From contig NZ_CP075191.1 in assembly GCF_020510625.1 (NCBI RefSeq), forward strand, positions 968,001-1,032,000: a stretch of DNA of 64,000 nt, in the 5' to 3' direction. Source of the stretch: Ferribacterium limneticum (lineage in GTDB: Bacteria > Pseudomonadota > Gammaproteobacteria > Burkholderiales > Rhodocyclaceae). The position numbers and the translations under genes are program-made. The first letter of the stretch is position 1. Each line of letters opens with the position of its first letter. Shown here piece after piece: positions 6,448-25,293 of this stretch. The notes under the pieces were generated by a model. That model saw only the letters and a list, made by a program, of their open reading frames with translations, did no database searches and was not told the origin of the DNA.

Positions 6448-6462
6448 GACGCTAAATCCTTG

Positions 6463-8718: not shown

Positions 8719-8775
8719 GCTCTTGGCTAGGGCTCCAGTGGCCGGCAGTGATGAATGTCTTGTTTCAGCATTATT

Positions 8776-8833
8776 AACGCTTTCGCGTTGTTTGCGGCTG
8801 ACCGCTGTGCAAAATTGTCACACTTCTGCACAG
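8776..8833. promoter_or_regulatory. Inverted repeats upstream of the cphA pair
   Basis: The 131-bp gap upstream of the synthetase pair holds two inverted repeats: AACGC-TTTC-GCGTT (8776-8789), and CTGTGCA (8805-8811) with TGCACAG (8827-8833). The local sequence is more AT-rich than its surroundings. These are candidate operator sites or part of the cyanophycin promoter. No known factor can be assigned. Confidence 0.3.
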
Positions 8834-8849
8834 GCTGTTACACAACGAT

Positions 8850-9320
8850 TTACAGGAAACGGTCGAGCAGCTTGCGGCTGTTGCGATCAAGCTGGGTCAG
8901 GTCGCGAACGAGGAACTGGATGCCGTTGGCGTCGGCGATCAGCAGGCGCGTCTGGCTCAGGCGGCGAATATCTTCCTCGCCCTTCAGGATCAGCTCAGCC
9001 TGGCCGCGATTGGTCACCAGTTGCCAGGTGCTCGGGCAGGCAAAGCTGGAGACGCCTTCGATGCGTTCGATTTCCGGCACGAACTCGCGGCTGGCCAGGT
9101 CGGCTTCGATCAGTTGGGCGATTGCAGACGGCAAGTCGGCCAGATTCTCGATCCAGGCGACTTCATGGCCTTCGTAATTGACCAGCGACAGGCCTTCGTC
9201 GGGGGCAGCGATCGGGAAGGCGCGCACCGGGGTGACGCCTTCGTGGACATCGCCATTGGCGGTGGTGAGAACGAGTCGACCGTAGCTGTCACGTTGCAGT
9301 TGGAAATTGGCGTTCGACAT
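8850..9320 (-). CDS. DUF1854 family protein linked to cyanophycin metabolism
   Basis: The start at ATG 9320 is preferred because GGAA lies about 8 nt upstream; an in-frame ATG at 9335 overlaps the ABC transporter gene. The product is about 156 residues, soluble, with no signal peptide. It resembles the DUF1854 family (VRAFPIAAPDEGLSLVN near the middle of the N-half and a C-terminal IQFLVRDLTQLDRNSRKLL). Members commonly neighbour cphA genes and the ABC transporter found here. Its biochemical role is unknown. Confidence 0.75.
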   Translation of the reverse strand: MSNANFQLQRDSYGRLVLTTANGDVHEGVTPVRAFPIAAPDEGLSLVNYEGHEVAWIENLADLPSAIAQLIEADLASREFVPEIERIEGVSSFACPSTWQLVTNRGQAELILKGEEDIRRLSQTRLLIADANGIQFLVRDLTQLDRNSRKLLDRFL

Positions 9321-9324
9321 GGGT

Positions 9325-11622
9325 TCATTCCGCATGGGTTTTTGGCTGGTTCGGCGAGCGCGGCAGTTCCGGCTCGGTATCGACGTTACGGGCCTGGGCC
9401 TGGTAGAGCTTGTAGTAATGGCCTTCGATGGCCATCAACTGGTCGTGGTTGCCGATTTCGACGATCTTGCCGCGGTCCATGACGACCAGCCGGTCGGCCT
9501 TGCGCAGCGTGCTCAGACGGTGGGCGATGGCGATGGTGGTGCGGCCCTTGACCAGGTTGTCGAGCGCCTTCTGGATTTCCTTTTCAGTCTCGGTGTCGAC
9601 GGCGGAAGTCGCTTCGTCGAGGATCAGGATGCGCGGATCGATCAACAGGGCGCGGGCGATGGAGATGCGCTGGCGCTCGCCGCCGGACAAACCCTGGCCG
9701 CGTTCGCCGACCAGCGAGTCGTAGCCGTGCGGCAGGCGCAGGATGAACTCGTGGGCATGGGCGGCGCGGGCGGCGGCGATGATTTCCTGGCGCGTCGCGT
9801 GCGGCTTGCCGTAGGCGATGTTGTCGGCGATGGTGCCGAAGAACAGGAAGGGTTCCTGCAGCACGAGGCCGATGTGTTGGCGGAACTCGGCAACCGGTAC
9901 CGAGCGGACATCGACGCCGTCGATCAGCACCTGGCCTTCGGAAACGTCGTAGAAGCGGCAGATCAGGTTGACCAGCGTCGATTTGCCGGAGCCGGAGTGG
10001 CCGACCAGACCGATCATTTCACCCGGCTGAATGACCAGATCGACATCGCGGGTGACCGAGCGGGTGCCATAGCGGAAGCTGGCTTTCTTCAGCTCGAGCT
10101 GGCCGGTGACCTTGCTCAGATGCACCGGGTTGGTCGGTTCGGGCACGCTGGAAACATGGTCGAGAATGTCGAAGATGCGCTTGGTGCTCGACGCAGCACG
10201 CTGGGTGGCCGAGACGATGCGGCTCATCGAATCAAGGCGGGTGTAGAAGCGGCCGATGTAGGCGAGGAAGGCGGTGAGCACGCCGACCGTGCTATCGCCC
10301 TTGGAAATCTGCCAGATGCCGAAGACCCAGACGACGAGCAGGCCGACTTCGGTGAGCAGCGTGACGGTGGGCGTGAACAGCGACCAGGTCTTGTTCAGCT
10401 TGTCATTCATCTGCAGGTTGTGCTCGTTGGCGGCGCGAAAACGCTCGCCTTCGCGCTTTTCCTGGGCAAAGGCTTTCACCACGCGAATGCCGGGGATGGT
10501 GTCGGCCAGCACGTTGGTCACTTCGGCCCAGACGCGGTCGATCTTCTCGAAACCGGTGCGCAGCTTCTCGCGAACGAAATGGATCAGCCAGCCGATGATC
10601 GGCAACGGCAGCAGGGTGACCAGCGCCAGCCACGGGTTGATCGAGAACAGGATGACGGCGGTCATCGAGATCATCAGCACGTCGGTGGCGAAATTGAGCA
10701 GGTCGAGCGACAGGAAGATGTTGATGCGGTCGGTTTCGTTGCCGATTCGCGCCATCAGGTCGCCGGTGCGCTTGCCGCCGAAGTATTCGAGCGACAGGCC
10801 GAGCAGGTGATCGTAGGTGGTGGTGCGCAGGTCGCGGCCCATGCGTTCGGAGACCAGCGACAGGATGTAGGTGCGAATCCAGCCCAGCACCCAGGCCAGC
10901 ACGGCGGCGCCAAACAGACCGCCGAGGTACATCAAAACCAGCGGCCAATCGATCGGCTTGCCGTTCTGGAACGGGATCAGCACGTTATCCATCAGCGGCA
11001 TGGTCAGGTAGGGCGGGACCAGCGTCGCGGCGGTCGAGGCCAGCGTCAGCAGGAAACCGGTGAGCAGTTGCCAGCGGTAGGGGCGGGCGAAACGCCACAG
11101 GCGGAACAATGTCCAGGTCGAGGGCGCAACGGTCGATTCACGGTTGCAGATCGGGCATTCGTCCTCGCCCGGTGGCAAGGGGGCCTTGCATTTCGGGCAA
11201 CAGTCTTCGCTGGCGCGCTGTACCGGCTGGCCGGAAACGACGCTGTCGCGGTTGAGATCGAACTCGCTGATGACGCGCAGGGCGGCCAGGTTCTTGGCCA
11301 GCGTGTAACGCCAGGTGGCCAGTTGGCCGTGTTCGTCGATCAATTCCAGCGCGCCGACGCCGGCGTGGTCGTGGTGATTCAGGGTCAGGCCACCGCGCAG
11401 GGGCCATTCCTGCCAGCCGGTTTCGCCAGCCGCCTGAGCGAGCAGGCGGCGATCGGTCACCAAAACCAAGCCGTTCGAGAACTTCAGGCGGTTATCGAGG
11501 TCGATTTCCAACCACGCCTGCGTTGTTTCGCCGGGAGTCAGCCTGGGCTCGATTGCAGCAGCCCAATGGCCGGGGAGCGCCAGCTCGTTGCTGGCTGAAT
11601 TCAGTAGTTTCGCGCTCATCAT
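9325..11622 (-). CDS. ABC exporter with N-terminal zinc ribbon, cyanophycin-associated
   Basis: From ATG 11622 the protein is 765 residues. Residues about 1-140 form a soluble N-terminal region, followed by a CPKC...CPIC zinc-ribbon-like segment, a six-helix ABC exporter membrane domain, and a nucleotide-binding domain with GHSGSGKST, signature LSGGERQRISIARAL and Walker B ILILDEAT. A single fused half-transporter of this kind should act as a homodimer in the inner membrane. It is encoded upstream of DUF1854 and the two cphA genes, so a link to cyanophycin or its peptides is likely; the substrate is unknown. No clear ribosome binding site precedes 11622. A TATACT hexamer lies 6 nt upstream, so a leaderless transcript or an upstream GTG start (11649) is possible. 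Confidence 0.82.
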   Translation of the reverse strand: MMSAKLLNSASNELALPGHWAAAIEPRLTPGETTQAWLEIDLDNRLKFSNGLVLVTDRRLLAQAAGETGWQEWPLRGGLTLNHHDHAGVGALELIDEHGQLATWRYTLAKNLAALRVISEFDLNRDSVVSGQPVQRASEDCCPKCKAPLPPGEDECPICNRESTVAPSTWTLFRLWRFARPYRWQLLTGFLLTLASTAATLVPPYLTMPLMDNVLIPFQNGKPIDWPLVLMYLGGLFGAAVLAWVLGWIRTYILSLVSERMGRDLRTTTYDHLLGLSLEYFGGKRTGDLMARIGNETDRINIFLSLDLLNFATDVLMISMTAVILFSINPWLALVTLLPLPIIGWLIHFVREKLRTGFEKIDRVWAEVTNVLADTIPGIRVVKAFAQEKREGERFRAANEHNLQMNDKLNKTWSLFTPTVTLLTEVGLLVVWVFGIWQISKGDSTVGVLTAFLAYIGRFYTRLDSMSRIVSATQRAASSTKRIFDILDHVSSVPEPTNPVHLSKVTGQLELKKASFRYGTRSVTRDVDLVIQPGEMIGLVGHSGSGKSTLVNLICRFYDVSEGQVLIDGVDVRSVPVAEFRQHIGLVLQEPFLFFGTIADNIAYGKPHATRQEIIAAARAAHAHEFILRLPHGYDSLVGERGQGLSGGERQRISIARALLIDPRILILDEATSAVDTETEKEIQKALDNLVKGRTTIAIAHRLSTLRKADRLVVMDRGKIVEIGNHDQLMAIEGHYYKLYQAQARNVDTEPELPRSPNQPKTHAE

Positions 11623-11676
11623 GGGAGTATACCGCAAGGGTGAGGCCACGGGCCGAGCCGCCCAATCCGGCAGTGA

Positions 11677-12885: not shown

Positions 12886-14453
12886 ACTGGAACATCCTGA
12901 TCCCGGCCGGCTTTGCCGCCTGCACCCTGTTGATGATGGCCGAGCTGGCCCAGGCCGCCGATGCGCCGAGCGCCTACAAGGAGCATTGCGCCTCTTGTCA
13001 CGGCGAGGCTCGGCTCGGCGGCATCGGCCCGGCGCTGATCCCGGAAAACCTGGCCCGGCTGCGCAAGCCGGAAGCCGAAAAGGTCATCAAGGAAGGCCGC
13101 CCGGCGACCCAGATGCTGGGCTTTGGCGACAAGCTGTCGGGCGAAGAAATCAAGGCGCTGGTCGACTACGCCTACACGCCGATCAAGCCGATGCCGGCGT
13201 GGGGCGAGAAGGAAATCGGCGCCTCGCGTATCGTCCATGAAAAGCAGCCCTTGCCGGACAAGCCGGTGTTCAAGGCTGACCCGATGAATCTCTTCGTCGT
13301 GGTAGAAAGCGGTGACCACCATGTCTCCATCCTCGATGGCGACAAGCTGGAACCAATCCACCGCTTCCAGTCGCGCTTCGCCCTGCACGGCGGGCCGAAA
13401 TTCACGCCGGATGGACGTTACGTCTTCTTCGCCTCGCGCGACGGCTGGGTCACCAAATTCGATCTGTGGAACCTGAAAGTGATTGCCGAGGTGCGTGCCG
13501 GCATCAATACCCGTAACGCGGCGGTCTCCGGCGATGGAAAATGGGTGGCGGTGGCCAATTATCTTCCGCACAGCCTGGTCATCCTCGATGCTGACCTCAA
13601 CCTCAAAAAGATACTGCCGGTGGCCGACAAGGACGGCAAGGTGACCTCGCGCGTTTCGGCGGTCTATGACGCCTCACCGCGCCAGAGTTTTGTCGCCGCC
13701 TTGAAGGATGTGAAAGAGGTTTGGGAGGTTTCGTACAACCCGAAGGCCGACGACATCCCGGCCGGCATGATCCACGACTTCAAGTACAAGGAAGGCAGCT
13801 TCGTTCCCGGCTTCCTCAACCCGCAGCGCACGCAGCTCGACGACTACCTCGACGACTTCTACTTCACGCAGGGCTACGACGAGGTGATGGGCGCTTCGCG
13901 CAACGACGCCAAGGCGGCAGTGACCGGCCAGGTGGTCAATCTCGATGCGCGCAAGAAAATCGCCGATCTCCAGCTACCCGGCATGCCGCACCTCGGCTCC
14001 GGCATCAGCTGGACATGGCAGGGCAAGACCGTAATGGCGACGCCGAACCTGAACGAAGGCCTGATCAGCATCATCGACATGAAAACCTGGCAGACCATCA
14101 AACAGATCAAGACGCGCGGCCCGGGCTTCTTCATGCGCAGCCACGAAAACAGCCGCTACGCCTGGACCGATTCGATGATGAGCAAGGAATTCAAGGACAC
14201 CATGCAGATCATCGACAAGGAAACGCTGGAAATCGTCGCCGAACTGAAGCCCGAGCCGGGCAAGACCTTCGCCCACGTCGAATTCACCAAGGACGGCAAG
14301 TATGTACTGGCCAGCCTGTGGGACATGGACGGCGCGCTGATCATCTACGACGCGGTGACGCTGAAGGAAGTGAAGCGCCTGCCGATGAAGAAGCCGGTGG
14401 GCAAGTACAACGTGTGGAACAAGATTACGAAGTCGGAAGGCACCAGCCACTGA
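12882..14453 (+). CDS. nirN: NirN, dihydro-haem d1 dehydrogenase (cytochrome cd1-like)
   Basis: This 523-residue periplasmic protein has a Sec signal peptide (about residues 1-25), a short c-type cytochrome domain with CASCH (C36, C39, H40) and an eight-bladed d1-type propeller. NirN oxidises dihydro-haem d1 to haem d1 in the last biosynthetic step. The close nitrite reductase NirS is the main alternative. NirN is favoured by the segment GGIGPALIPENLARLRKPEAEKV and by its coupling to nirJ. If it were NirS, the substrate-binding His pair of the d1 domain should be recognisable, which needs an alignment to settle. Confidence 0.85.
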   Translation: MNWNILIPAGFAACTLLMMAELAQAADAPSAYKEHCASCHGEARLGGIGPALIPENLARLRKPEAEKVIKEGRPATQMLGFGDKLSGEEIKALVDYAYTPIKPMPAWGEKEIGASRIVHEKQPLPDKPVFKADPMNLFVVVESGDHHVSILDGDKLEPIHRFQSRFALHGGPKFTPDGRYVFFASRDGWVTKFDLWNLKVIAEVRAGINTRNAAVSGDGKWVAVANYLPHSLVILDADLNLKKILPVADKDGKVTSRVSAVYDASPRQSFVAALKDVKEVWEVSYNPKADDIPAGMIHDFKYKEGSFVPGFLNPQRTQLDDYLDDFYFTQGYDEVMGASRNDAKAAVTGQVVNLDARKKIADLQLPGMPHLGSGISWTWQGKTVMATPNLNEGLISIIDMKTWQTIKQIKTRGPGFFMRSHENSRYAWTDSMMSKEFKDTMQIIDKETLEIVAELKPEPGKTFAHVEFTKDGKYVLASLWDMDGALIIYDAVTLKEVKRLPMKKPVGKYNVWNKITKSEGTSH

Positions 14454-14526
14454 GTTGCATCTTCCTGGCCGTCGAATTTTGGCGGCCAAATGAGTCGACA
14501 AGCGTCGTGGTCTTGCCTAAATAAAA

Positions 14527-14549
14527 CGGCGCGGTAACTTACCGCGCCG
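14527..14549 (-). terminator. Terminator between nirN and the iodate reductase operon
   Basis: CGGCGCGGTAA-C-TTACCGCGCCG is a perfect 11-bp inverted repeat. On the minus strand it is followed by TTTTAT, so it is a good intrinsic terminator for the cytochrome gene. It can also stop readthrough from nirN. Confidence 0.85.
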
Positions 14550-14580
14550 CTATAAAGAGGGATGAAACCGTAACAAGAGC

Positions 14581-14898
14581 TTACTTCAGGGTCAGGACGA
14601 AATCGACCAGTACCTTGATGTCGGCATCCTTGACCGTGGCGTTGGGCGGCATCGGAATCGGCCCCCAGGCACCCTTGGTGCCCTTCTTGACCTTGACGAC
14701 CAGTTGCTCGGCTGCGGCAGGATCACCAGCGTATTTCTTGCCGACTTCGTTCCAGGCGGGGCCGACCAGCTTTTTGTCGAGCGCATGGCAGGCCAGACAG
14801 CCGTTCTTCTTGGCGATTTCCATTGCCGTGGCTTGATCAGCAGCCAGACCTGGCAGGGCAAGGCTGGCCAGTGCGACAAGTGCGAGAATTTTCTTCAT
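14581..14898 (-). CDS. Periplasmic monohaem cytochrome c (c551-like)
   Basis: This 105-residue precursor has a signal peptide ending near LPGLAA, a single CLACH haem site (C34, C37, H38) and a probable axial Met in IPMPPN, typical of small class I cytochromes c. It follows the molybdoenzyme gene by 48 nt on the same strand, with its own Shine-Dalgarno (GGAG) and before the terminator. It is therefore probably the last gene of the operon. A role as electron donor to the reductase or to the dihaem proteins is likely but inferred. Confidence 0.9.
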   Translation of the reverse strand: MKKILALVALASLALPGLAADQATAMEIAKKNGCLACHALDKKLVGPAWNEVGKKYAGDPAAAEQLVVKVKKGTKGAWGPIPMPPNATVKDADIKVLVDFVLTLK

Positions 14899-14946
14899 GC
14901 TTGAATCTCCAGGGTTCGGGCGGGATTGCTCCCGCCCGTATTCGGT

Positions 14947-17622
14947 TTAGACGATGGGACGGGGCTTCAGGCTCATCCGGGTCAGGTCGGTCTTGTATTC
15001 CGACTCGCCCACCTTGGTCAGCGTGCCGCGGCCGAGCTTGTAGCGGTAGTTGTTGGTCATCGGGTCCGGTACGGCCGAGACCACCGAGTTGGCCATCGAC
15101 TTCGGTGTGTTGAAGTTCGACTTGGCAACGCCCTCCTTGATTTCGTCCGACACGATGGCGACGGCGCGGAAACGTCCCTCGGCCACCTTGATGTGACCGT
15201 CCTTCATCAATTGGTTGAAGGTCAGGTCAGCATCGAGCACGCCTTGCGGCTGGCCGGTCTGCACATACACCGTGTCGTTGTGGATCTCGACCCAGTCGCC
15301 CGATTCGATACCGCGCTTCTTGGCGTCGTTCGGGTTGATGATGATGAAGTTGTCCGGCCAGCGCTGGTTCAGGTAGGGCTTGCGACGGTCGTCAAAACCG
15401 GACTGCCAGGTTTCGTTGATGCGGCCGTTAGTCACCCACAGTTCGTTCTTCTCGGCGCGCGGCTTCACGGCTTCGAAGAACTGGTACCAGCCAGCGAACT
15501 TCCACGGGCTCTTGAGCAGGATGGCCTTGCCGGAGTGCGTGTTGAAGGCATAGAGCCAGCGGCGCTGGACTTCGCTGCTTTCGATCTCGCCCCAGTTGTT
15601 GGCCGGGTCGTGCAGGCGCTGCGTGCCGACCAGCTTGCCGTCTCGAACCCGAACCGGCGTCTGGATGCCGGTGGTGCCCATGGTGCGCAGCAATTCGTGG
15701 CCCTTGACACCCATTTCCTTAGCCTTGGTGACCAGCGGCTGGTAGTTGAGCACGCCGCCGCGACCGAAGCGCGCCGCTTCCTCGAACACATCGTTCGACG
15801 ACTGCCAGTTGTAGCTGCCGTCGGCGGTGTAGCCCATCTTGTCGGCAAATTTCGCTACCGCCCACCAGTCCGGCTTGGCCTCGCCCGGTGCATCGTAGAA
15901 CTTGGCGTAGAGACGCAGACGGCGCTCGGAGTTACAGCGGGTCAGGTCATCTTCGCCCCAGGTGGCGGCCGGTAGCACGATGTCGGAAAACTCGGTACCG
16001 ACTGGTTCGCAAGGGTAGATGTCGGAATCGACCATCACCATGCCGCCGGAATCGACGCGCTTCTTCAGCACTTCAAAGATCGCGGCGCGGTCGAGGCTGG
16101 TGATCTGGTGCGGGTTGCCGACGGTCAGTTCCTTCAAGCGGGCGCCGAGCGCGTCGGAGGCCATCATCGCCGCTACCCAGGTGGTGCCGAAGACCCAGGC
16201 GAATTTGACCTCGCCAGCCATGACCCAACGGTCGAGGTTGAAACTCTTCTTGCGACGACCGGGATACTTTTCTGGCGACAGCCAGCCGGAACCGCCACCG
16301 GCGCCCATCATGCCGCGCTGGTGACCGCCGCCGCGCGAGATCATGCGGCCCGGCCGGTTGCCAGCGCCGCAGATCAGGCCCAGTGCGGCGAACGAGGCCG
16401 TGTTCATGTAGTTGTTGGACCAGTAGTTGCCCTTCTCGCACATGAACGAGGTCTTCGGCGCCTTGCCGTTGACCGGCTTGGCGATCCACTCGGTGGCCTT
16501 GACGATGTCTTCGGCCTTGATGCCGGTGATCCTGGCGGCAACCTCCAGTTTCGATTCTTCCTGGGCCAGGATGAATTTCTTGTAATCCGCCCAGTCGCTC
16601 TGCCAGGTGCCCCAAGTGGTGCGCCACTGCCAGCCGGTGTTGCGCGTGCCGCGGCCGTAGCCTTCATCGACTTCCCAAGGTTTGGCGATCCACTGGTCGA
16701 TGAATGCCTGATCCTGCCAGTTGTTTTCGATGATGATGCGGGCGATCGCCATGTGCAGCACGGTATCGGTGCCGAGGTTGATCGGCAGCCACATGCCACG
16801 CCCCTGCGATACCGCCCAGGCGACGCCCATGGTCTTGTGCGGGGTGACGAAGATGAATTTCTTGTCGCCCGGCATCATCCAGGTGGTGAACAGCGTCGTC
16901 TTGGTTTCGTAAGGATCGACGCCCGACAGGAAAGCAACTTCGCAATCGGCCCAATCCTGGTAGCTGGAGGCAAAGGAGTCGATGCCGGCATCGTCGAGGC
17001 CCGTGGCGTCATTGGTGTTCGAGCACTTGTCGTGCGGCGCAATGGATGGCGTACCGACCGAGGTCATGCCCAGCTTGGTGATGGCGTAGGTGTTCTCGAA
17101 ATACTGGTAGGAGTACATCTTGATCGCCCAGGCGTGTTCGCCGTGCTTGGCCAGGATGTACTTCGAGATGTCGGCCATCGCTTCGGTAGCCAGATCCCAA
17201 CTGACCGGAGTCAGCTTGCCATTGACGCGGATCATCGGGCTGGTCAGGCGCTCGCGGGTAGCGGTGTCCGGGTTGTAGCACTTCTGGCCCAGCGTGCCGC
17301 CGCGAATCGAGTGGTTGCCGCCAACGTTGACCACGGTCGCATCCTTGTCCGGCACGACGATGACGTGATGCTTCTGGCCCTTGTGGGTGACCACGTTGTA
17401 CTGCGCCGGGCTGACCCACGAGGTCATCATGGCCTGATGCGGGAAGTCCGCCTTCAGCGCATTCTGGCTGGCTTGCGGGCCGCCTTCCTTGCCCACCGGC
17501 CAGCGATAGACCTTGTAGCCGCAGGCGATGGTGCAGTAGTCGCAGGCCGTGGTCAGGACTTCAGCATCCTTCGGCGGCAGCGGGATGCGATCAACGGCGA
17601 TGTGTTTGTCGTTCTTGCTCAT
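14947..17622 (-). CDS. idrA: Iodate reductase catalytic subunit IdrA (AioA-like molybdoenzyme)
   Basis: The start at 17622 is chosen because GAGGAG lies 7 nt upstream; it gives 891 residues. It is a DMSO-reductase-family bis-MGD enzyme of the arsenite oxidase branch. The N-terminal CDYCTIAC (C27, C30, C34) provides only three cysteines, as expected for the 3Fe-4S cluster of AioA/IdrA. There is no signal peptide, so export should occur with the Tat-signalled Rieske partner. AioA was considered. The iodate reductase call comes from the two dihaem peroxidase genes (P1, P2) in the same operon, the hallmark of idr clusters and absent from aio operons. The expected reaction is periplasmic reduction of iodate, with the peroxidase-like partners handling reactive intermediates. 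Confidence 0.85.
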   Translation of the reverse strand: MSKNDKHIAVDRIPLPPKDAEVLTTACDYCTIACGYKVYRWPVGKEGGPQASQNALKADFPHQAMMTSWVSPAQYNVVTHKGQKHHVIVVPDKDATVVNVGGNHSIRGGTLGQKCYNPDTATRERLTSPMIRVNGKLTPVSWDLATEAMADISKYILAKHGEHAWAIKMYSYQYFENTYAITKLGMTSVGTPSIAPHDKCSNTNDATGLDDAGIDSFASSYQDWADCEVAFLSGVDPYETKTTLFTTWMMPGDKKFIFVTPHKTMGVAWAVSQGRGMWLPINLGTDTVLHMAIARIIIENNWQDQAFIDQWIAKPWEVDEGYGRGTRNTGWQWRTTWGTWQSDWADYKKFILAQEESKLEVAARITGIKAEDIVKATEWIAKPVNGKAPKTSFMCEKGNYWSNNYMNTASFAALGLICGAGNRPGRMISRGGGHQRGMMGAGGGSGWLSPEKYPGRRKKSFNLDRWVMAGEVKFAWVFGTTWVAAMMASDALGARLKELTVGNPHQITSLDRAAIFEVLKKRVDSGGMVMVDSDIYPCEPVGTEFSDIVLPAATWGEDDLTRCNSERRLRLYAKFYDAPGEAKPDWWAVAKFADKMGYTADGSYNWQSSNDVFEEAARFGRGGVLNYQPLVTKAKEMGVKGHELLRTMGTTGIQTPVRVRDGKLVGTQRLHDPANNWGEIESSEVQRRWLYAFNTHSGKAILLKSPWKFAGWYQFFEAVKPRAEKNELWVTNGRINETWQSGFDDRRKPYLNQRWPDNFIIINPNDAKKRGIESGDWVEIHNDTVYVQTGQPQGVLDADLTFNQLMKDGHIKVAEGRFRAVAIVSDEIKEGVAKSNFNTPKSMANSVVSAVPDPMTNNYRYKLGRGTLTKVGESEYKTDLTRMSLKPRPIV

Positions 17623-17633
17623 GTCCAATCTCC

Positions 17634-18212
17634 TCAAGCGCGGGCGGTCATGGCGCTATAGCCATAGACCAGCCCCATGACGCCGACGGCGTAGATGTCG
17701 TCGCCCTGCACTTCGAGCACGATCTGCGGCAGGCTTTCCGTGCCGTGGCCGGAAATGACCATGCCGTGCTTGGTCAGGTCGAAAGTCGTCAGGTGCAGCG
17801 GGCAAGGGCCAAGGGCCTGGAAGGCATCCTTGTAGGTGCCCTGCAGCGGCCCACCCATGTGCGTGCATTGCTGGTTGAAGGCAACGATGTCCTTGTCGGC
17901 GCCAACGCCGCCACCGGCGACCGTGCCCAGCTTGACCAGGATGTTCTGGACGTCGGGATACGGGTAGGCGAAGTCGAGCGGAATGCCTTTCTTCAGGGCC
18001 GCCAAACTGCCGATCTTCTGCTTCGGAAAACTGGCTTTCAGGGCGTGGATCGGTGCGGCTTCCGCCGTACCCGGCAGGCCAATGGCGGCCAGCGTGACCA
18101 TCGCCCCGCCGGCCAGCAGAAATTGGCGGCGGCTCATGCACAGGCGGTCATGGTGATCGTCGTGGCGATTGCTGTGACCATCCGCATGAACGGAAATGAC
18201 TTTGTTCGTCAT
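17634..18212 (-). CDS. idrB: Iodate reductase Rieske subunit IdrB
   Basis: This 192-residue small subunit carries a twin-arginine signal (SRRQF at residues 27-31 with the hydrophobic stretch after it) preceded by a His-rich N-terminus. The Rieske 2Fe-2S ligands are CTH (C116, H118) and CPLH (C137, H140). The two positions that form a disulfide in many Rieske proteins are Gly121 and Leu139 here, so no such bridge can form. It passes electrons between periplasmic cytochromes and the molybdenum subunit. A strong AAGGAG site precedes the ATG, and the stop lies just before the idrA ribosome binding site. Confidence 0.88.
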   Translation of the reverse strand: MTNKVISVHADGHSNRHDDHHDRLCMSRRQFLLAGGAMVTLAAIGLPGTAEAAPIHALKASFPKQKIGSLAALKKGIPLDFAYPYPDVQNILVKLGTVAGGGVGADKDIVAFNQQCTHMGGPLQGTYKDAFQALGPCPLHLTTFDLTKHGMVISGHGTESLPQIVLEVQGDDIYAVGVMGLVYGYSAMTARA

Positions 18213-18224
18213 GGTGCGTACTCC

Positions 18225-19361
18225 TTACTTGGCAGCCGAGATCGGCGCGGGAAGCGGCTGGTAATCGCCGGGTAGCTTGGGATCGTCTTGCAGCAGCGGC
18301 TCATCCATCGACAGGGCTTCGAGGAAGGCGACCAGATCCTTCTTCTCCTGGGCGCTCAGCTTCAATGGCTTGAGCAACTTGGTCTTGTTCTGGGCCGCAC
18401 CGCCGCCCTGGTTGTAGAACTCGACCACGTCGCCCAGCGTTGCCAGCATGCCGTTGTGCATGTAGGGGCCGGTGTACTTCAGCTCGCGCAGGCTGGGGAC
18501 GCGCCACTTGCCGATGTCCTTCGGGTTCATCGTGATGTAGAACAGACCGGCATCGCCCTTGGCATTGCGGTAGTCGCTTTCGGAAACGCCCTTCTGGTAC
18601 CACTCCCAGCGATGCGTCACCTGGCCGACCGGGTCTTCCGCAAACTGCGGGTGATCCGGCACGCCGGTGGCGAAGAACTGCTGGTTCGAGGCGAGCGGCC
18701 CGTTGTGGCAGGCGATGCAGTTGGCCTTGCCGTTGTAGAGCGCCATACCGCGTTTCTGGCTGTCGTTGAGCGCCTTCTTGTCGCCCATGGCGTAGCGGTC
18801 GGCCGGCACCTTTTTGGCATCCGAATTCAGCGTGCGCTGGTAGGCGGCAATCGCCCGCCAGGCGTCGTTGATGCGTGGCCACTGGCTGCCGAAGACCTTG
18901 TTGAATTCCTGTACGTACTCGGGCAGGAAGCGCAGGCGCATTTCCATCACCGAGTCGTCGCCATTGCCTGCCACGCCACCACCGGCTGCGGCCGGGGCTT
19001 GTTGTTCGAGGCTGGTTACCGAACCTTCCCAGAACAGTTTGTTGTAGTAGCCCGAGTTGAGCACGGTCTGCGAGTTGCGCCAGTGCTTGGTCCCGGGGTA
19101 GCCGCGCGAGATCTGGCCGCCGTCGCCCCAGCCCAGGCCGGGCACGTGGCAGGAGACGCAGGGCATGGAGCCGTCGCCGGACAGGCGGTTATCCCAGAAC
19201 AGTTTCTTGCCGAGTTCCACCTTGGCTGGCGTGTTCGGGTTGTCCTTGGGAATCGGTGGTGGCGGCAAGGGGCCGAGTGCCGGATATTTGTCGGCAGCAG
19301 TCGCCGAAAGGGCCAGCAGCATGGCGCCGGCAGCGAGGGTAAAGCGGGTTGTCGTGTTCAT
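18225..19361 (-). CDS. idrP1: Dihaem cytochrome c peroxidase-like protein IdrP1
   Basis: This 378-residue exported protein has a signal peptide (about residues 1-23) and two haem sites, CVSCH (C68, C71, H72) and CIACH (C214, C217, H218). The C-terminal motif PYMHNGMLATLGDVVEFY is typical of the CcpA/MauG family. In iodate reducers the paired peroxidases are proposed to remove peroxide or hypoiodous acid made during iodate reduction. A GAGGAGG site precedes the ATG and the next gene starts 12 nt on, so it belongs to the same transcript. Numbering P1/P2 follows closeness to idrAB. Confidence 0.85.
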   Translation of the reverse strand: MNTTTRFTLAAGAMLLALSATAADKYPALGPLPPPPIPKDNPNTPAKVELGKKLFWDNRLSGDGSMPCVSCHVPGLGWGDGGQISRGYPGTKHWRNSQTVLNSGYYNKLFWEGSVTSLEQQAPAAAGGGVAGNGDDSVMEMRLRFLPEYVQEFNKVFGSQWPRINDAWRAIAAYQRTLNSDAKKVPADRYAMGDKKALNDSQKRGMALYNGKANCIACHNGPLASNQQFFATGVPDHPQFAEDPVGQVTHRWEWYQKGVSESDYRNAKGDAGLFYITMNPKDIGKWRVPSLRELKYTGPYMHNGMLATLGDVVEFYNQGGGAAQNKTKLLKPLKLSAQEKKDLVAFLEALSMDEPLLQDDPKLPGDYQPLPAPISAAK

Positions 19362-19370
19362 GTCGCCTCC

Positions 19371-20495
19371 TCAGTTCTTGCCGTAGGTCTTCCAGACCTG
19401 CATGTCGGGCTGGCCGGGATCCTTGACCTCAACCTGATCGCCAGACAGGGAAAGCAGAAATGCCTTGAGCGCTTTCTTCTCGCTGGCCGACAGGTTCAGC
19501 GCCTTCAACTCGGAACCGGCGGCGCCGCCCTTGTCGTAGAAATTGATCACGTCGTCGAGCGTGGCCAGCGTGCCGTTGTGCATGTAGGGCGCCGTGTATT
19601 TCAGGTCGCGCAGCTGGGCGGTACGGAATTTACCGATGTCGCGCTTGTCCTTCGTGATGGCGTAAGCGCCGACGTCGGTGCGGGCGTTCATGTAGTTCGG
19701 CATGCCGCTGGTGGCGTAATGGCGCAGCATGGTGATGGTGCGCAGCGGGTTCTTCAAGACGTCCGGGTGCTCGGGCACGCCGGTCTTGTGCAGGTTGCCG
19801 TCAGAACCGATCGGGCCGTTGTGGCAGGCAACGCAGTTGGCCTTGCCCTTGAACAGCGCGTAACCGTCCTTCTGCTCGGAGGTCAGGGCTGATTCATCAC
19901 CCTTCTTGAACTTGTCGAAGGGCGCATTGGTCGTTTCCAGGCTCTTGATGAATTCGCCGATGACATTGAAGACGCGCATGCCGTTGATGTCGTCATTCGG
20001 GCGCCACTTCTGCCACAGCGCGTGGTATTCCGGTACCTGCTTCAGGCGTTCCTGCATCAGGCGGCCGTCCATGTTCATCGTGTGGGCCTCGGTGATCATG
20101 TCGCGAACCAGCGTGCCGGCATCGGAGCCGTCAAGACGGCCATCCCACAGGAAGCGCTTCTGGTGCTTCGAGTTCAGTACGGTCGGTGAATTGCGGAAAT
20201 ACTCCATCGACGGATAGCCAGCTGACAGCGCCATGCCGTCACCCCAGCCTTTTTTCGGATCATGGCAAGAAGCGCAGGAAACGCCCCAGTCGCCGGAGAG
20301 GCGGTTGTCGAAGAAGAAGTATTTGCCGAGTTCGATCATCGTGGCATTGCCCGGCTTGGCTTCGGGCATGGCGGCGAGATCGGGTGCATTACCCTGGGCA
20401 TTGACCGACTGCGGGTCGGCCATCAGGGCAACGGCTGTCGCAACACCCATCACTCCCATGGTTAGCGCCAGACGTTTGCGATGCTGGTTTTTCAT
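19371..20495 (-). CDS. idrP2: Dihaem cytochrome c peroxidase-like protein IdrP2
   Basis: The start is set at ATG 20495, with AGGGGG just upstream; a longer frame from 20567 would begin inside the sigma-54 promoter. The 374-residue precursor has a basic, hydrophobic signal (about residues 1-33) and two haem motifs, CASCH (C74, C77, H78) and CVACH (C221, C224, H225), plus PYMHNGTLATLDDVINFY. It is the first gene of the operon and a paralogue of its neighbour, with shorter loops. The expected role is periplasmic peroxidase paired with IdrP1. Confidence 0.85.
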   Translation of the reverse strand: MKNQHRKRLALTMGVMGVATAVALMADPQSVNAQGNAPDLAAMPEAKPGNATMIELGKYFFFDNRLSGDWGVSCASCHDPKKGWGDGMALSAGYPSMEYFRNSPTVLNSKHQKRFLWDGRLDGSDAGTLVRDMITEAHTMNMDGRLMQERLKQVPEYHALWQKWRPNDDINGMRVFNVIGEFIKSLETTNAPFDKFKKGDESALTSEQKDGYALFKGKANCVACHNGPIGSDGNLHKTGVPEHPDVLKNPLRTITMLRHYATSGMPNYMNARTDVGAYAITKDKRDIGKFRTAQLRDLKYTAPYMHNGTLATLDDVINFYDKGGAAGSELKALNLSASEKKALKAFLLSLSGDQVEVKDPGQPDMQVWKTYGKN

Positions 20496-20550
20496 GATTC
20501 CCCCTGTGGATTGGAGACCTGTGGGAACAGCCCCACAACAGGAAGGGAAT

Positions 20551-20566
20551 TGCACGCTCCGTGCCA
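20551..20566 (-). promoter_or_regulatory. Sigma-54 (-24/-12) promoter of the idr operon
   Basis: On the minus strand the sequence is TGGCACG-GAGC-GTGCA. It matches the RpoN consensus TGGCACG-N4-TTGCW, with GG and GC separated by the required 10 nt and one mismatch in the -12 box. It lies 55 nt before the idrP2 ATG, leaving a leader of about 45 nt. An NtrC-type activator is encoded directly upstream. Confidence 0.85.
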
Positions 20567-20630
20567 TGGCCGGGAGTGGCTGATTATTCGAGGTTTTACG
20601 ATGAAGCCAGTTGTTTGGCAGCGGTCATAA

Positions 20631-20664
20631 ATCAACCGGCCGGTTAATTTCTGACCGGTTTGAT
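20631..20664. promoter_or_regulatory. Candidate enhancer site for the NtrC-type regulator
   Basis: AACCGGCCGGTT (20634-20645) is a perfect 12-bp palindrome inside a near-perfect 18-bp one (20631-20648). A third half-site, CCGGTTTGAT, follows at 20655-20664 and mirrors ATCAACCGG at 20631-20639. The cluster is 65-98 bp upstream of the -24 box, the usual distance for an upstream activating sequence. It could instead be part of a terminator for the regulator gene, but no T-run follows. Confidence 0.6.
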
Positions 20665-20675
20665 AGTGATCGGAA

Positions 20676-22046
20676 TCAGTTTTCCGAACCCTCTTCTGGG
20701 TCGCGCAACTTGTTGCGCAGCGTCAATCGGGTAATGCCGAGCAGTTCGGCAGCCTGCGTCTTGTTGCCATCGCAAAGCTTGAGCACGTGACGAATGTAGT
20801 CTAGTTCGATGTCTGCCAGCGGACGTATTGCGGCGCTGTATTTCGGGCTGTCCGGTGTGCTGTGAACGACGGTTTCACCGGCTATTTCCTTGGGTAGATG
20901 CGGCGTCCCAATAGGTTCGCCACGGGAAAGGATGGCGGCGCGCTCCACCACGTTCCGCAATTCGCGGACATTGCCCGGCCAACGATAGGCTTTGAGCAAT
21001 GGCTCCACCCCGCCTTCAAATCCGGGTGATTCGACCCCGATGACCGGAGCCACCTCGGCCAGGAAGTGCCGGGCCAAAGGCAGGATGTCATCCTGTCGTT
21101 CGCGCAGTGCCGGCAAGTCGATGGCACCGACATTCAGCCGGTAATACAGATCCTCGCGGAACTGCCCGGATTGCACCATGGCCGGCAGGTCGCGGTGCGT
21201 GGCCGAAACGAAGCGGACATCGACGCGGATTTCCTTCTGTCCGCCCAGGCGGCGAAAGGTCTGCGTTTCCAGCACGCGTAGTAGCTTGGGCTGCAGGGCC
21301 AGCGACAGGTCGCCGATTTCATCGAGAAACAGGGTGCCGCCATCGGCCAGTTCGAGCAGGCCGCGCTTCATCTGCTTGGCGTCGGTGAAGGCACCGCGCT
21401 CGTGGCCGAACATCTCGGATTCAAGCAAACCTTCCGGCAAGGCTGAGCAGTTGAGCGTCACCCAAGGGCCATCGGCGCGCGGCGACCGGCAGTGGATGGC
21501 CAGGGCGATGCGCTCCTTGCCGGTGCCCGACTCGCCACGAATCAGCACCGGCACCTTGCCAGCCGAGGCAATCCGCGCCGTCGTGTCGAGCATTTGCCGA
21601 AACGGCGCGCTGTCGCCGATCAGGCCGTCGATGACGCAGTTGTCGGACTGGGCGCGCCGCCATTCGACCTCACGCCGCAGGCGATGCGTCTCCAGCGCCC
21701 GGCGTATCAGTTCCTGCAGGTCTTCCAGATCGAAAGGTTTGTTGATGTAGTCGTAAGCCCCGGCCTTCAGGGCGGCGACTGCGGTACGCACCTCGGGATA
21801 GGCGGTCATGATGACCACCAGCGGACGATCATCCGATTCGCGCACCTTGGCCAGAATGTCGAGGCCATTCATGTCGGGCAGGCGCAGATCGAGCAAGATC
21901 AGGCTGAAAGTGCGTTCCTTGAGCAGTTCGAGGGCCTGCGCGCCATCCTCGGCAACTTCGACATCGAAGCCCTGGCGCGCCAGGAAATTGCCCACCGTTA
22001 CCCGGATGGTGTTGTCGTCTTCAACGATGAGAATCGGTTCGGGCAT
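20676..22046 (-). CDS. Sigma-54-dependent response regulator (NtrC family)
   Basis: The start at 22046 lies 1 nt after the kinase stop and gives 456 residues; an in-frame start at 22091 would overlap the kinase gene. Domains in order are a receiver (phosphoacceptor D53 in LLDLRLPD), an AAA+ module with Walker A GESGTGKE and Walker B GGTLFLDEIGDL, and a C-terminal Fis-type helix-turn-helix (NKTQAAELLGITRLTLRNKL). The sigma-54 contact loop reads GAFTDA instead of the usual GAFTGA. It is very likely the activator of the idr promoter 110 bp downstream. AioR has the same architecture, so naming it after either system would be premature. Confidence 0.9.
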   Translation of the reverse strand: MPEPILIVEDDNTIRVTVGNFLARQGFDVEVAEDGAQALELLKERTFSLILLDLRLPDMNGLDILAKVRESDDRPLVVIMTAYPEVRTAVAALKAGAYDYINKPFDLEDLQELIRRALETHRLRREVEWRRAQSDNCVIDGLIGDSAPFRQMLDTTARIASAGKVPVLIRGESGTGKERIALAIHCRSPRADGPWVTLNCSALPEGLLESEMFGHERGAFTDAKQMKRGLLELADGGTLFLDEIGDLSLALQPKLLRVLETQTFRRLGGQKEIRVDVRFVSATHRDLPAMVQSGQFREDLYYRLNVGAIDLPALRERQDDILPLARHFLAEVAPVIGVESPGFEGGVEPLLKAYRWPGNVRELRNVVERAAILSRGEPIGTPHLPKEIAGETVVHSTPDSPKYSAAIRPLADIELDYIRHVLKLCDGNKTQAAELLGITRLTLRNKLRDPEEGSEN

Positions 22047-22047
22047 G

Positions 22048-24324
22048 TCAGTTTCCAGCAAGAGGCCAAGTGAGGGTGAAGCAGGTTCCATGCCCCGGCG
22101 AACTGGTCACGGCAACGCTTCCGCCGTGCTGTTCGACGATTTTCCTGACGATGGACAGCCCCAGCCCCGTTCCTTCGCGGCGAGTTGTATAGAAAGGCTC
22201 GAAGATGCGTTTCAGCACTTCATCGGACATGCCCACGCCGGTATCCGAGATGCGGATTGTTTTGAAATTCGCCTCGGTTTTTGCATCGACCGTCACAACG
22301 CCCCCCTTGGGCATCGCATGAATGGCATTCATCAACAGGTTGAGAAAAACCTGCTTCAGTTGATGCGGATCGGCCGACAAGGGGGGATTGGTGTCGATAC
22401 CGGCTAGTTCGAATCGAATGTTGCCGCTCTTGGCATCCTTGCGCGTCCAGAACAACACGTCATCCAGCACCTGTGCCAGAGGGCAGGCTTCTCGCGCGAT
22501 CATCTGCGGTGCGGCAAAACCATGGAAGCTGCGCAGGAAACCTGAAAGCCGATCCACCTCCGACTCCATGCGTTTCAATGCCTCGATGAGTCCCGGCGGC
22601 ACATCCTCTTCGTATTGCATCGCCTGTGCAACAGCCTTCATACCAGCCAGCGGGTTGCCGATTTCGTGCGCCACCCCCATCGCCAGTTCGCCCAGCGTGG
22701 TCAACTTTTCCATCTGGAACATCTGGCGGTCCAGTTCACGGCGCTCATCGTGAATTTCGCGTTCCCGGCTGACGTCGCGGGCAACGACAATAAAGCCGGC
22801 GGTCGTTGGCGTGACGGCCAGGGAAATCACTTGCTCGGGCAATTCCAGATCACAGCGGATTGCACCGTGGCTGGCATCAAGCGCGATGCTTTTCCATTGC
22901 GGCCAGAACTGCTCGACATTCAAGCCGAGCGGGTTGTGCGATTCGCCGAGTAAGCGTCCTGCAGCGGGGTTGAGCAGGCGGATGATCCCATCCCGGTCGA
23001 TGGCCAGAATACCGTCTGCCGTGTGCTGGATGACTGCTTCGAGCGAGGCCCGCTCCTGCTCCAACTCCTGTGTGCGGGCCCGAACCTCATCTTCCAGGCG
23101 GTCGCGATGCGCCGTGATGGCGCGGGAGGATTCTTGCAGGCGCGACGCCATGCCGTTGAACTTTTCACCCAGTGCGGCAATTTCATCATTGCCAAGCACC
23201 GAGACGCGGCGCGAAAAATCGCCGTCGGCAATGGCATCCGTCTCTTTCGACAAGTCTTCCAGCGGTCGCAACAGACGCCTTGAAAGCGCATAGCCACCCA
23301 GTGCTGTGACCAGGAGTGCGACAAACAGCACCGCATAGAGCAGGTACAGATTGACCACGGCCATGAACAACTCGCGCTCCGGGAAAGCCAAGGCAATGCG
23401 CCATTTCCCCTTCGAGTTTTCAGCCAGTGCTTGCTGTGCATAGTCGATGGGCGAGTGGGCGACAATCCAGCCTTCACCGAGGCTGGGCGAGTTGCCACTT
23501 TCAATCAGATTGTTCGCGATGCCCGCCGGAAAGAAGCGATGCAGGTTTTCGACCGGTTCCAGCGAAAATGCCCCCGGCTCGCCATCAGCCGAACGGCTGA
23601 CGAAATGTCCCTGACTATCGAGTAGGTAGGCAGTGCCGTGGCGGGCATTGGCCATTTGCTGGATCTGTTCCAGCAGGATGTCGGCATGCAGATTGATGAT
23701 CAGGACACCGACCTTGGCGCCACTTGGTGCGGCCACCGGCGTGGCCACCCGAATGACCGGACGCTCCGGTTTTTCGATCTTGCCGAACTCGACGTTCAGA
23801 TCAAGCGGGGAAACGTAGATCTGCCCGACGCCAACCTCCATCGCATCGCGAAAATAATAGCGATCCCCCTTCGGTTGTAGCGCCTCACGCGGCACGACAT
23901 GCACGCCGTCCGGTTTGCGATCGACGCGCACCCATTCGTTGCCGTCGGCCGTCAGCAGGCGAATCTGGTAGATATGGGGGTAGAGCGTGGCCAGGGCGGC
24001 GTAGTCGCGCTCCAGTCGCGTCGTCGCCAACTGCAGCAACTGGGCATCCCGCGTCTGGCGTGCGGCAAGCACATCAACCAACCCCCGGCTGTTGGCGAGA
24101 TAGAGCAATTCGGATGAAAGCTGGTCAAAAAACCGGCCTATCCCCTGCGAGCGAACCGTGACTTCCTGATTCAAATTGCGCAGCGTTTCGCCTTTGAGCG
24201 CCTGCAAGGACAGATAGACACCTATGGCGCCAGCCAACGCCGTCGGGATGACCGCAGCGACCAGAAACGCGGCGTATATTCGGCGTGAAAGCCCACCTAA
24301 TGCACTGAAATTGGCGAAATCCAT
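22048..24324 (-). CDS. Membrane sensor histidine kinase (dCache-HAMP-PAS-HisKA)
   Basis: This 758-residue inner membrane kinase has a first membrane helix at about residues 17-37, a large periplasmic double-Cache-like sensor (about 40-325), a second helix (about 333-353), HAMP, a coiled coil, a PAS domain (LEAVIQHTADGILAIDRDG), HisKA with the phosphoacceptor in VAHEIGNPLAGMK and an HATPase domain ending TRREGTGLGLSIVRKIV. It is the partner of the adjacent response regulator. Its place upstream of the reductase operon suggests it senses the electron acceptor or a related periplasmic signal. The ligand is unknown. Confidence 0.9.
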   Translation of the reverse strand: MDFANFSALGGLSRRIYAAFLVAAVIPTALAGAIGVYLSLQALKGETLRNLNQEVTVRSQGIGRFFDQLSSELLYLANSRGLVDVLAARQTRDAQLLQLATTRLERDYAALATLYPHIYQIRLLTADGNEWVRVDRKPDGVHVVPREALQPKGDRYYFRDAMEVGVGQIYVSPLDLNVEFGKIEKPERPVIRVATPVAAPSGAKVGVLIINLHADILLEQIQQMANARHGTAYLLDSQGHFVSRSADGEPGAFSLEPVENLHRFFPAGIANNLIESGNSPSLGEGWIVAHSPIDYAQQALAENSKGKWRIALAFPERELFMAVVNLYLLYAVLFVALLVTALGGYALSRRLLRPLEDLSKETDAIADGDFSRRVSVLGNDEIAALGEKFNGMASRLQESSRAITAHRDRLEDEVRARTQELEQERASLEAVIQHTADGILAIDRDGIIRLLNPAAGRLLGESHNPLGLNVEQFWPQWKSIALDASHGAIRCDLELPEQVISLAVTPTTAGFIVVARDVSREREIHDERRELDRQMFQMEKLTTLGELAMGVAHEIGNPLAGMKAVAQAMQYEEDVPPGLIEALKRMESEVDRLSGFLRSFHGFAAPQMIAREACPLAQVLDDVLFWTRKDAKSGNIRFELAGIDTNPPLSADPHQLKQVFLNLLMNAIHAMPKGGVVTVDAKTEANFKTIRISDTGVGMSDEVLKRIFEPFYTTRREGTGLGLSIVRKIVEQHGGSVAVTSSPGHGTCFTLTWPLAGN

Positions 24325-24600
24325 GGTTCATTCTAACAATGAGTGATGCGCCGTTGCCGCTGCGTGACGGCTTTCTTCCCGGTGCGCCGGTCAGGTCAGG
24401 TGCGAAACTGGACGCCGGTCGGCACCGTGGCCCTCCATCCTGAATTCGATTGCATCGTCAAAGCGCATTCGGAAGACAGGCTTATTCAGCCGCCGCATGA
24501 TCGCGGCGACAACGATCGCGATGCGCGCCGCCGTGGGCTGGGGCTGTCCGCGAAAATCGTTCAAAATCGCCCCTTCTCCCGTCTTCGCAGTCTTCCTGTC

Positions 24601-25293
24601 ATGCCCCTTCCGCTCGCATCGAATCAGTTGCTGCTCTGTGTGTCACCCGATTGGGCGACTCCTGCAGGCCGTTTGCAGCGCTTCTTGCGCGCTCAGTCGG
24701 CAAATGACTGGCAGCCAGTCGGGCCATCGATTCCGGTAATGCTGGGCCGTTCCGGGCTGGCTTGGGGGCGGGGTTTGCCTGCCGAGCCAGCCGGGGAGGT
24801 GCGTCTGAAGAGCGAGGGGGACGGTTGTGCCCCGGCCGGTATTTTCGTGATTTCTGCACTGTTTGGTTATGCGAAGCCGGGCAGTACGTTGGCTCATCCT
24901 GCGAAGCTGCCTTATCTGTATGCCAGTCCTGATCTAAAGGCCATCGACGACCCGGCGTCCTCGCATTACAACCGGATTGTCGATCAGTCGTCTGTGGCTT
25001 GCCGAGACTGGACTTCGTGCGAAGACATGCGGCGGGACGACCAGCGCTATGCGATCGGTGCCGTTGTCGCGCATAACCTCGAGCAGGCGCCCGGTGCGGG
25101 CTCGTGCATTTTCCTGCATGTCTGGGAGCGCGAGGGCGTGCCGACGGCCGGGTGTACGGCGATGTCACTGGCCGATATGACGGAGATTGCCCGCTGGCTG
25201 GATGGTGCGGCGGCACCGGTGCTGGTGCAGTTGCCGCGAGCGGAATACGAAGCCTTGCGTGAGGCCTGGGGGCTGCCGCTGTTCGCAGCATGA
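24601..25293 (+). CDS. L,D-transpeptidase (YkuD-like) family protein
   Basis: The start at ATG 24601 is preferred over an upstream frame of low-complexity, Arg-rich residues; it gives 230 residues. The catalytic region reads GSCIFLHVWEREGVPTAGCT, matching the His-x(n)-S/T-x-G-Cys motif of YkuD-type L,D-transpeptidases with Cys as nucleophile. These enzymes cross-link peptidoglycan or attach proteins to it. No convincing signal peptide is visible, which is odd for a cell-wall enzyme. It starts 276 bp after the divergent kinase gene; nothing else is seen in that gap. Confidence 0.75.
   Translation: MPLPLASNQLLLCVSPDWATPAGRLQRFLRAQSANDWQPVGPSIPVMLGRSGLAWGRGLPAEPAGEVRLKSEGDGCAPAGIFVISALFGYAKPGSTLAHPAKLPYLYASPDLKAIDDPASSHYNRIVDQSSVACRDWTSCEDMRRDDQRYAIGAVVAHNLEQAPGAGSCIFLHVWEREGVPTAGCTAMSLADMTEIARWLDGAAAPVLVQLPRAEYEALREAWGLPLFAA

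Follow-up and report, generated by a model that had tools for sequence, protein, structure and literature searches.

Iodate reductase is encoded by the published gene cluster idrABP1P2, and the arsenite oxidase subunit AioA is the nearest characterized relative of its catalytic subunit, IdrA; the peroxidase genes are reported to be absent near aio genes (PMC8692401). Deletion of idrA abolishes growth on iodate in Denitromonas iodatirespirans IR-12, where complementation was also done (PMC8692401), and Roseovarius azorensis and Notoacmeibacter marinus are reported to reduce iodate (PMC11445184). For other Rhodocyclales, the cluster, its synteny, an adjacent two-component system, and a cytochrome c551 have already been published (PMC8801600, PMC10149662). 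We analyzed a stretch of 64,000 nucleotides from Ferribacterium limneticum (assembly GCF_020510625.1, contig NZ_CP075191.1, positions 968,001 to 1,032,000; here called the window), in which an earlier reading of the letters had proposed an operon idrP2-P1-B-A followed by a cytochrome c gene. The sequence evidence supports a full complement of iodate reductase (idr) family genes, preceded by a kinase-regulator pair and a predicted sigma-54 promoter. The locus belongs to the published iodate reduction island and is not a new type; regulation and mosaic ancestry are the additions made here.

The five open reading frames all lie on the minus strand, in the order P2, P1, IdrB, IdrA, and cytochrome c551, each at the place given by the original prediction. 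Both idrP2 (19371..20495) and idrP1 (18225..19361) encode di-haem MauG/CCP-family proteins that match PF03150 and carry two CXXCH motifs each, in agreement with the proposed dihaem peroxidase-like cytochromes, and their nearest solved chains by sequence are di-haem enzymes or cytochrome c551 peroxidases. We presume which of the two is P1 and which P2. The Rieske subunit gene idrB (17634..18212) matches the arsenite_ox_S model and carries the twin-arginine translocation (Tat) motif SRRQFL, as expected for an exported subunit; a twin-arginine motif is present in 76 of 77 aligned IdrB rows. The molybdenum-bis(molybdopterin guanine dinucleotide) (Mo-bisMGD) catalytic subunit of 891 amino acids (aa), encoded by idrA (14947..17622), was likewise recognized correctly: it matches arsenite_ox_L, PF00384, and PF01568, and tree and residues (below) agree. 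It contains the [3Fe-4S] motif CX2CX3CX70S (C32, C35, C39, and S110 in an 896-aa numbering from TTG 17637), a form also reported for IdrA of Azoarcus DN11 (PMC10149662), and 17 further protein records are 95 to 96% identical to it. Read by eye only, the translations agree with a signal-free IdrA and with Sec signals on P1 and P2. The last gene (14581..14898; PF00034, one CXXCH) encodes a c551/c552-type cytochrome c, the predicted electron donor to IdrB, whose nearest solved chains by sequence are cytochromes c-552/c551.

Ribosome binding sites, read by eye as GGAG or AGGGGG stretches, lie ahead of the starts, and the single terminator that had been proposed corresponds to a 12-pair stem with a T-rich tail directly past the cytochrome gene (14525..14551, minus strand), predicted by stem search and direct reading. 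It is the longest of 10 terminator-like matches, which overall are not above shuffles (10.1 expected). The starts of two genes probably need correction. IdrA likely begins at ATG 17622 and not at TTG 17637, since the resulting 891 aa equal the length of a database record that is 100% identical. P2 likely begins at 20495, with AGGGGG ahead of it, and not at ATG 20567, a codon that overlaps the predicted sigma-54 promoter.

We then compared IdrA with its relatives. Named genomes were scanned with an alignment of 11 IdrA sequences, and the best 80 of 182 relatives were kept; three plasmid Idr loci and seven plasmid AioA loci were added from 439 plasmid records with a match, the label AioA being our own assumption for L093, which lacks annotation, and for L098. 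In the resulting tree of 91 rows (84 Idr and 7 AioA), built by a quick search with support from the Shimodaira-Hasegawa-like approximate likelihood ratio test only, without bootstrap, and with long branches for several AioA rows, the window IdrA fell inside the group that contains Denitromonas IR-12, R. azorensis, and N. marinus. Its nearest rows were from Sulfuritalea and Thiobacillus metagenome-assembled genomes (MAGs), with a support of 98 for the five-row group and 100 for the seven-row group. The seven AioA rows separated from the Idr rows with a support of 100, and a position inside the AioA clade, set beforehand as the refuting outcome, was not what we found. The window IdrA is 53 to 88% identical to the 80 kept Idr loci versus 27 to 31% to the seven AioA. 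We also looked for columns with one letter in at least 97% of the 84 Idr rows and a single, different letter in all of six AioA rows, Cytobacillus being left out. This gave 11 type-specific positions (S176, Y177, D203, D210, F222, D241, Y405, S415, R441, D552, and R567), and the window IdrA has the Idr letter at all of them; around R441, for instance, Idr proteins read HQR and AioA proteins HQE. The AioA residues that align with H202, D210, R435, and H439 are those that we take to form the arsenite pocket.

In the gene neighborhoods, 77 of 82 Idr loci (L009 to L089 and L091) have one or more labelled P1/P2 homologues, though not always both, whereas none was found within 4 kb of aioA in the seven AioA loci. 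In the five Idr loci that lack a homologue (L016, L023, L024, L051, and L082), idrA lies less than 700 bp from a contig end, and L090, which is split by the start of a circular record, contains two cytochrome c peroxidase genes. The peroxidase genes therefore mark Idr over Aio, as had been claimed, and together with the tree and the residues they bear out the reading of the cluster as iodate reductase and not arsenite oxidase. The AioAB systems of NT-26, pSinA, and others share with the window the Mo-bisMGD and Rieske pair and the [3Fe-4S] motif, and those of NT-26 and pSinA also a two-component system and a cytochrome c nearby, but they differ in clade, in their 4-kb flanks, and at the 11 positions. 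A few other arrangements were seen along the way. Within the same class, L162 (genome G812) has an IdrA/IdrB-like pair of 52 to 57% identity with no P1/P2 labelled in about 11 kb upstream, and two MAGs, Sulfuritalea bin.273 (L009 and L037) and Betaproteobacteria NC_groundwater_329 (L031 and L076), each carry two diverged IdrA-like clusters. Among other genomes of the class, 14 of 368 have an IdrA relative at an E value of 1e-200, 13 of them at only 47 to 54% identity; the IdrA copy on a Vibrio megaplasmid (L091), at 47%, resembles these 13.

Upstream of idrP2 and on the same strand, two genes that the original prediction had overlooked occupy 20676-24324. The first (20676..22091, minus strand) encodes an NtrC-type, sigma-54-dependent response regulator (PF00072, PF00158, and PF02954), and the second (22048..24324, minus strand) a sensor histidine kinase with dCache, HAMP, PAS, HisKA, and HATPase_c domains, the predicted sensor of the iodate pathway. 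The pair recurs in identical order at related idr loci. Genes for a sigma-54 regulator and a kinase adjoin idr in Azoarcus DN11 (PMC10149662), and the two-component pair beside idr has been suggested to sense iodate (PMC8801600). Both the two-component system and the c551 of the accessory set of the iodate reduction island are thus present beside the window cluster, and RpoN is encoded in the genome. The loci of the Roseovarius/Notoacmeibacter group (L040, L041, L043 to L047, L050, and L062) have another regulator, 30 to 38% identical to that of the window and on the opposite strand, and a kinase-like gene of 25 to 32% identity; this group seems to use another switch. Induction of idr has already been measured in Roseovarius (PMC11445184), whose regulator differs from that of the window.

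We next examined the spacer ahead of idrP2 in the 16 loci, including the window, that carry, immediately upstream of idrP2, a regulator with more than 60% identity to that of the window. The pattern TGGCAY-N5-NTGC, which we take to be the sigma-54 promoter consensus, was searched from the regulator stop to idrP2 (180 bases in the window; 269 to 425 bases, including the first part of idrP2, in the other 15 loci), with expectations from first-order shuffles. It occurs in all 16 regulator-bearing loci against 0.096 loci expected, and in the window it gives the predicted promoter TGGCACGGAGCGTGCA (20551..20566, minus strand; -24/-12). Among 52 control Idr loci without the regulator in this arrangement, the pattern occurs in three (L015, L017, and L086; 0.14 expected). 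Upstream of the promoter, we found a candidate activator motif, CGGTCA-N5-TGACCG, with 34 sites at up to three mismatches (six of them at three) in 15 of the 16 loci, versus 0.83 sites expected; the control loci had 13 sites in 11 of 52 loci, 12 of them at three mismatches, versus an expected 8.2 sites in 7.4 loci. The window has three predicted sites on the minus strand, a weak one with three mismatches (site 1, 20656..20672), CGGTCAGAAATTAACCG with one mismatch (site 2, 20641..20657), and CGGTTGATTTATGACCG with two (site 3, 20622..20638). Relative to the -24 box, they start at -106, -91, and -72; L021, L022, and L033 share this spacing. In the whole genome, a looser site pattern occurs at 30 places, and the idr spacer is the only one with two of them within 60 bp. 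No sigma-70 promoter match was found in 14350-24700 (2.2 expected). The features of an enhancer-dependent sigma-54 promoter are all present, namely, -24/-12 elements at fixed spacing, upstream sites, an adjacent activator gene, and RpoN, and we predict that idrP2 is transcribed from a sigma-54 promoter activated by the adjacent kinase-regulator pair.

Outside the set from which the motifs came, a plasmid of Thiothrix subterranea has TGGCACAACTCTTGC before idrP2, with the regulator gene downstream of the reductase genes. Four other order-level genomes with a match proved to be in the set already (L010, L049, L031/L076, and L057), and none of the four that we took from 14 other class-level genomes (L159 to L162) provided a regulator-bearing test case: L159 and L161 have no such regulator within 15 kb, the pair in L160 is divergent (37 and 26% identity), and neither promoter pattern nor sites were found in the 600 bases searched in these three. 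L033 was dropped as an independent genome, as a 1-kb test stretch of it has an exact match in G090, the second congener with idrA. Among the papers listed by searches of the open-access literature, titles and abstract openings contained no prior description of the promoter, the sites, or the mosaic structure described below.

Among known systems, D. iodatirespirans IR-12 (L029) resembles the window in gene order (kinase, regulator, P2, P1, B, A, and cytochrome c), in an IdrA 75% identical, and in a sigma-54 pattern, there TGGCACGCAAGCTGC, in the same spacer, but its regulator is only 64% and its kinase 53% identical, and its activator array is degenerate, with one site at three mismatches. The plasmid of Azonexus hydrophilus NCP973 (NZ_CP151407.1, L089) has all seven genes in the same order and two weak activator sites at matching spacing (-105/-90); unlike the window, it has an added moaA and an IdrA from the other reductase lineage, 78% identical. 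Its Tn7-like transposition genes, for a TnsA N-terminal domain protein, an AAA ATPase, and a TnsD-like protein (L089:17320-26691), lie 1 to 10 kb downstream of the full idr module and moaA and may be a vehicle of the island. The Sulfuritalea and Thiobacillus MAG clusters (L009 and L012) have the closest IdrA (87 to 88%) and P1 and P2 of 80 to 84% identity, but their regulator (65%) and kinase (56 to 59%) show that the regulatory half of the window is not theirs.

This disagreement extends to the trees. The window kinase and regulator group with Azonexus, Oxalobacteraceae, Rhodocyclaceae L033, and Azoarcus (support of 100 and 96, seven-row groups), while its IdrA and P2 group with Sulfuritalea, Thiobacillus, and their kin (support of 98 to 100 and 95), and identity along the module changes lineage inside the 5' part of idrP2. 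We tested for a breakpoint in seven triplets, which we chose among 24 possible ones (four A by six B loci, the lineage labels A and B being our own), with 2000 permutations. The best single breakpoint fell at 19830-20364 in all seven triplets, and the parts to its left and right favored opposite parents. Permutations as extreme numbered 0 of 2000 in each triplet, which is not an exact probability because permutation ignores the linkage between sites. The cytochrome end favors neither lineage clearly, and in the cytochrome tree the window falls in no supported group. Judged from these comparisons, the module is a chimera, in which kinase, regulator, promoter, and 5' idrP2 match one idr lineage and P1-B-A another. 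The reverse pairing is seen in Aromatoleum toluvorans (L048), though less well supported (85 for the regulator and 94 for the kinase). Tentatively, and at somewhat less than an even chance, iodate respiration may spread as two exchangeable cassettes that recombine inside 5' idrP2, with the window as one hybrid and A. toluvorans as a partial mirror image. The signal cassette would consist of the kinase, the regulator, the activator array, and the sigma-54 promoter, and the reductase cassette of P2-P1-B-A; by such an exchange, a reductase would gain a foreign but self-matched iodate switch.

The genomic site points to a gain of the whole block. About 10 kb adjoining nirN (14455..24600, right end between 24324 and about 24664) have no counterpart at this site in 15 congeners, which are not a random set, having been picked from the matches among 59 searched for the presence of both flanks. 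Similarity to these congeners ends at the nirN stop codon (14453 to 14460; 14443 in two) and resumes at 24664 to 24944 in 14 of the 15, the gap being filled by 0.7 to 7.4 kb of different DNA; G067, the fifteenth, has about 18 kb between its flanks. The nirN-side spot is variable in the genus. At an E value of 1e-150, idrA was found in 2 of 76 genomes of the genus, that of the window and G090. In G090, nirN is absent next to the module over the 19.5 kb read. Since the block is without counterpart at this site in the congeners examined and idrA was found in these two genomes only, the idr block was likely gained here as foreign DNA. By eye, the block has no guanine-plus-cytosine or skew signature of an island.

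The denitrifier-like setting that had been suggested is supported by nirJ and a NirN-like gene beside the operon and by two cytochrome cd1 frames elsewhere. A genome search with PF02239 retrieved these two frames, of 575 and 580 aa (about the size of NirS), and the NirN-like frame of the window, together with a 395-aa frame across the left edge of the window and weak matches in a 315-aa frame. At 3877-11649 (minus strand), flanked by siroheme decarboxylase-like genes (602-2021) and by the haem d1 cluster gene nirJ, lie genes for a DUF1854 protein, an ABC exporter, and two proteins resembling cyanophycin synthetase. The chlorite dismutase (Cld) family (PF06778) had no match in the genome, with a control match in 7 of 14 genomes; Cld-dependent detoxification was rejected on this result, and the published Denitromonas model fits better than a Cld model.

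We consider it quite probable that, through the idr-family operon and its c551, iodate can serve the cell as an electron acceptor, and that the adjacent kinase and regulator switch these genes on via sigma-54. Growth or cometabolism on iodate, which the earlier reading had proposed, is predicted. Iodate as substrate and signal, the electron path, the binding of the regulator, and induction are all inferred. In this model, the dCache kinase would sense iodate or a product of iodate, the phosphorylated NtrC-type regulator would bind the array starting 72 to 106 bp upstream of the -24 box, and RpoN polymerase would start at TGGCACGGAGCGTGCA. IdrA would be carried to the periplasm with the Tat-exported IdrB. 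Electrons would pass from the bc1 complex to c551, the Rieske center, the [3Fe-4S] cluster, and the Mo site, a route that follows the published Denitromonas model (PMC8692401). There, iodate would be reduced by four electrons to hypoiodous acid, which would disproportionate to iodide and iodate, and P1 and P2 would remove peroxide or other oxidants.

Several observations weigh against this reading. The kinase is named a sensor of iodate from its gene neighborhood. moaA was not among the neighboring frames scanned and is not in the block; it is also missing from five of ten genomes in a published comparison (PMC8801600). Both motifs were derived on the same 16 loci used for counting, and the looser site pattern is rarer genome-wide than its backward control (30 versus 152 places). 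The Thiothrix plasmid, the sole held-out regulator-bearing case, combines a consensus promoter with a single weak site; sites at up to three mismatches are absent from L048, and those of L029 and L089 all have three mismatches. Motif and regulator are not strictly linked. In L015 and L017, promoter pattern and sites are both present with none of these regulators labelled in the part examined, possibly because it lies elsewhere in the genome; in L086, the pattern is accompanied by a 48% regulator on the opposite strand; and the pattern is absent before P2 in L025, despite a 65% regulator downstream, and in L065 and L078, with 50% regulators. Finally, both subunits pass the NCBIfam arsenite oxidase cut-offs (440.3 versus 359.05 bits for the large and 111.5 versus 95.65 bits for the small subunit), and among the matches listed no Idr model competes with them, which would explain an automatic arsenite oxidase name.

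An enzyme of the IdrA clade could instead serve mainly for other oxidized halogen species or for defense against oxidants, with iodate as a side reaction. Aerobic bacteria carry Idr clusters of unclear role and reduce iodate mainly under static conditions (PMC11445184), and peroxidase-like proteins accompany the reductase; however, IR-12, with its 75% identical IdrA, needs idrA for growth by iodate respiration (PMC8692401), and the host of the window has nitrite-respiration genes, so that we hold this to be unlikely. An operon that is intact but silent or misregulated in this host could be expected of a gained block whose regulatory and reductase halves stem from different lineages, with a switch in 5' idrP2 and with idrA in so few genomes of the genus. 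This we find slightly less likely still: the frames are all open, stretches like ribosome binding sites, promoter, and activator sites are kept, the 17 further records are 95 to 96% identical, and the promoter travels with the regulator half, which should keep the switch matched. An arsenite oxidase (AioAB) operon with accessory cytochromes, which the cut-offs and AioA and AioB as nearest solved structures by sequence would favor, is highly improbable and was rejected on the tree split, the 27 to 31% identity to AioA, the Idr residues, and a neighborhood with no aioX or ars genes among 20 frames scanned.

Iodate-reducing bacteria are held to help set the iodate/iodide ratio in waters (PMC8692401, PMC11445184) and bear on radioiodine clean-up (PMC10149662). 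The window locus adds a chromosomal idr case, probably within the Dechloromonas/Azonexus group. The disagreement between the regulator and reductase trees of the island would be explained by the chimera, and the common promoter and activator sites provide a concrete, testable model of how iodate may induce the operon.

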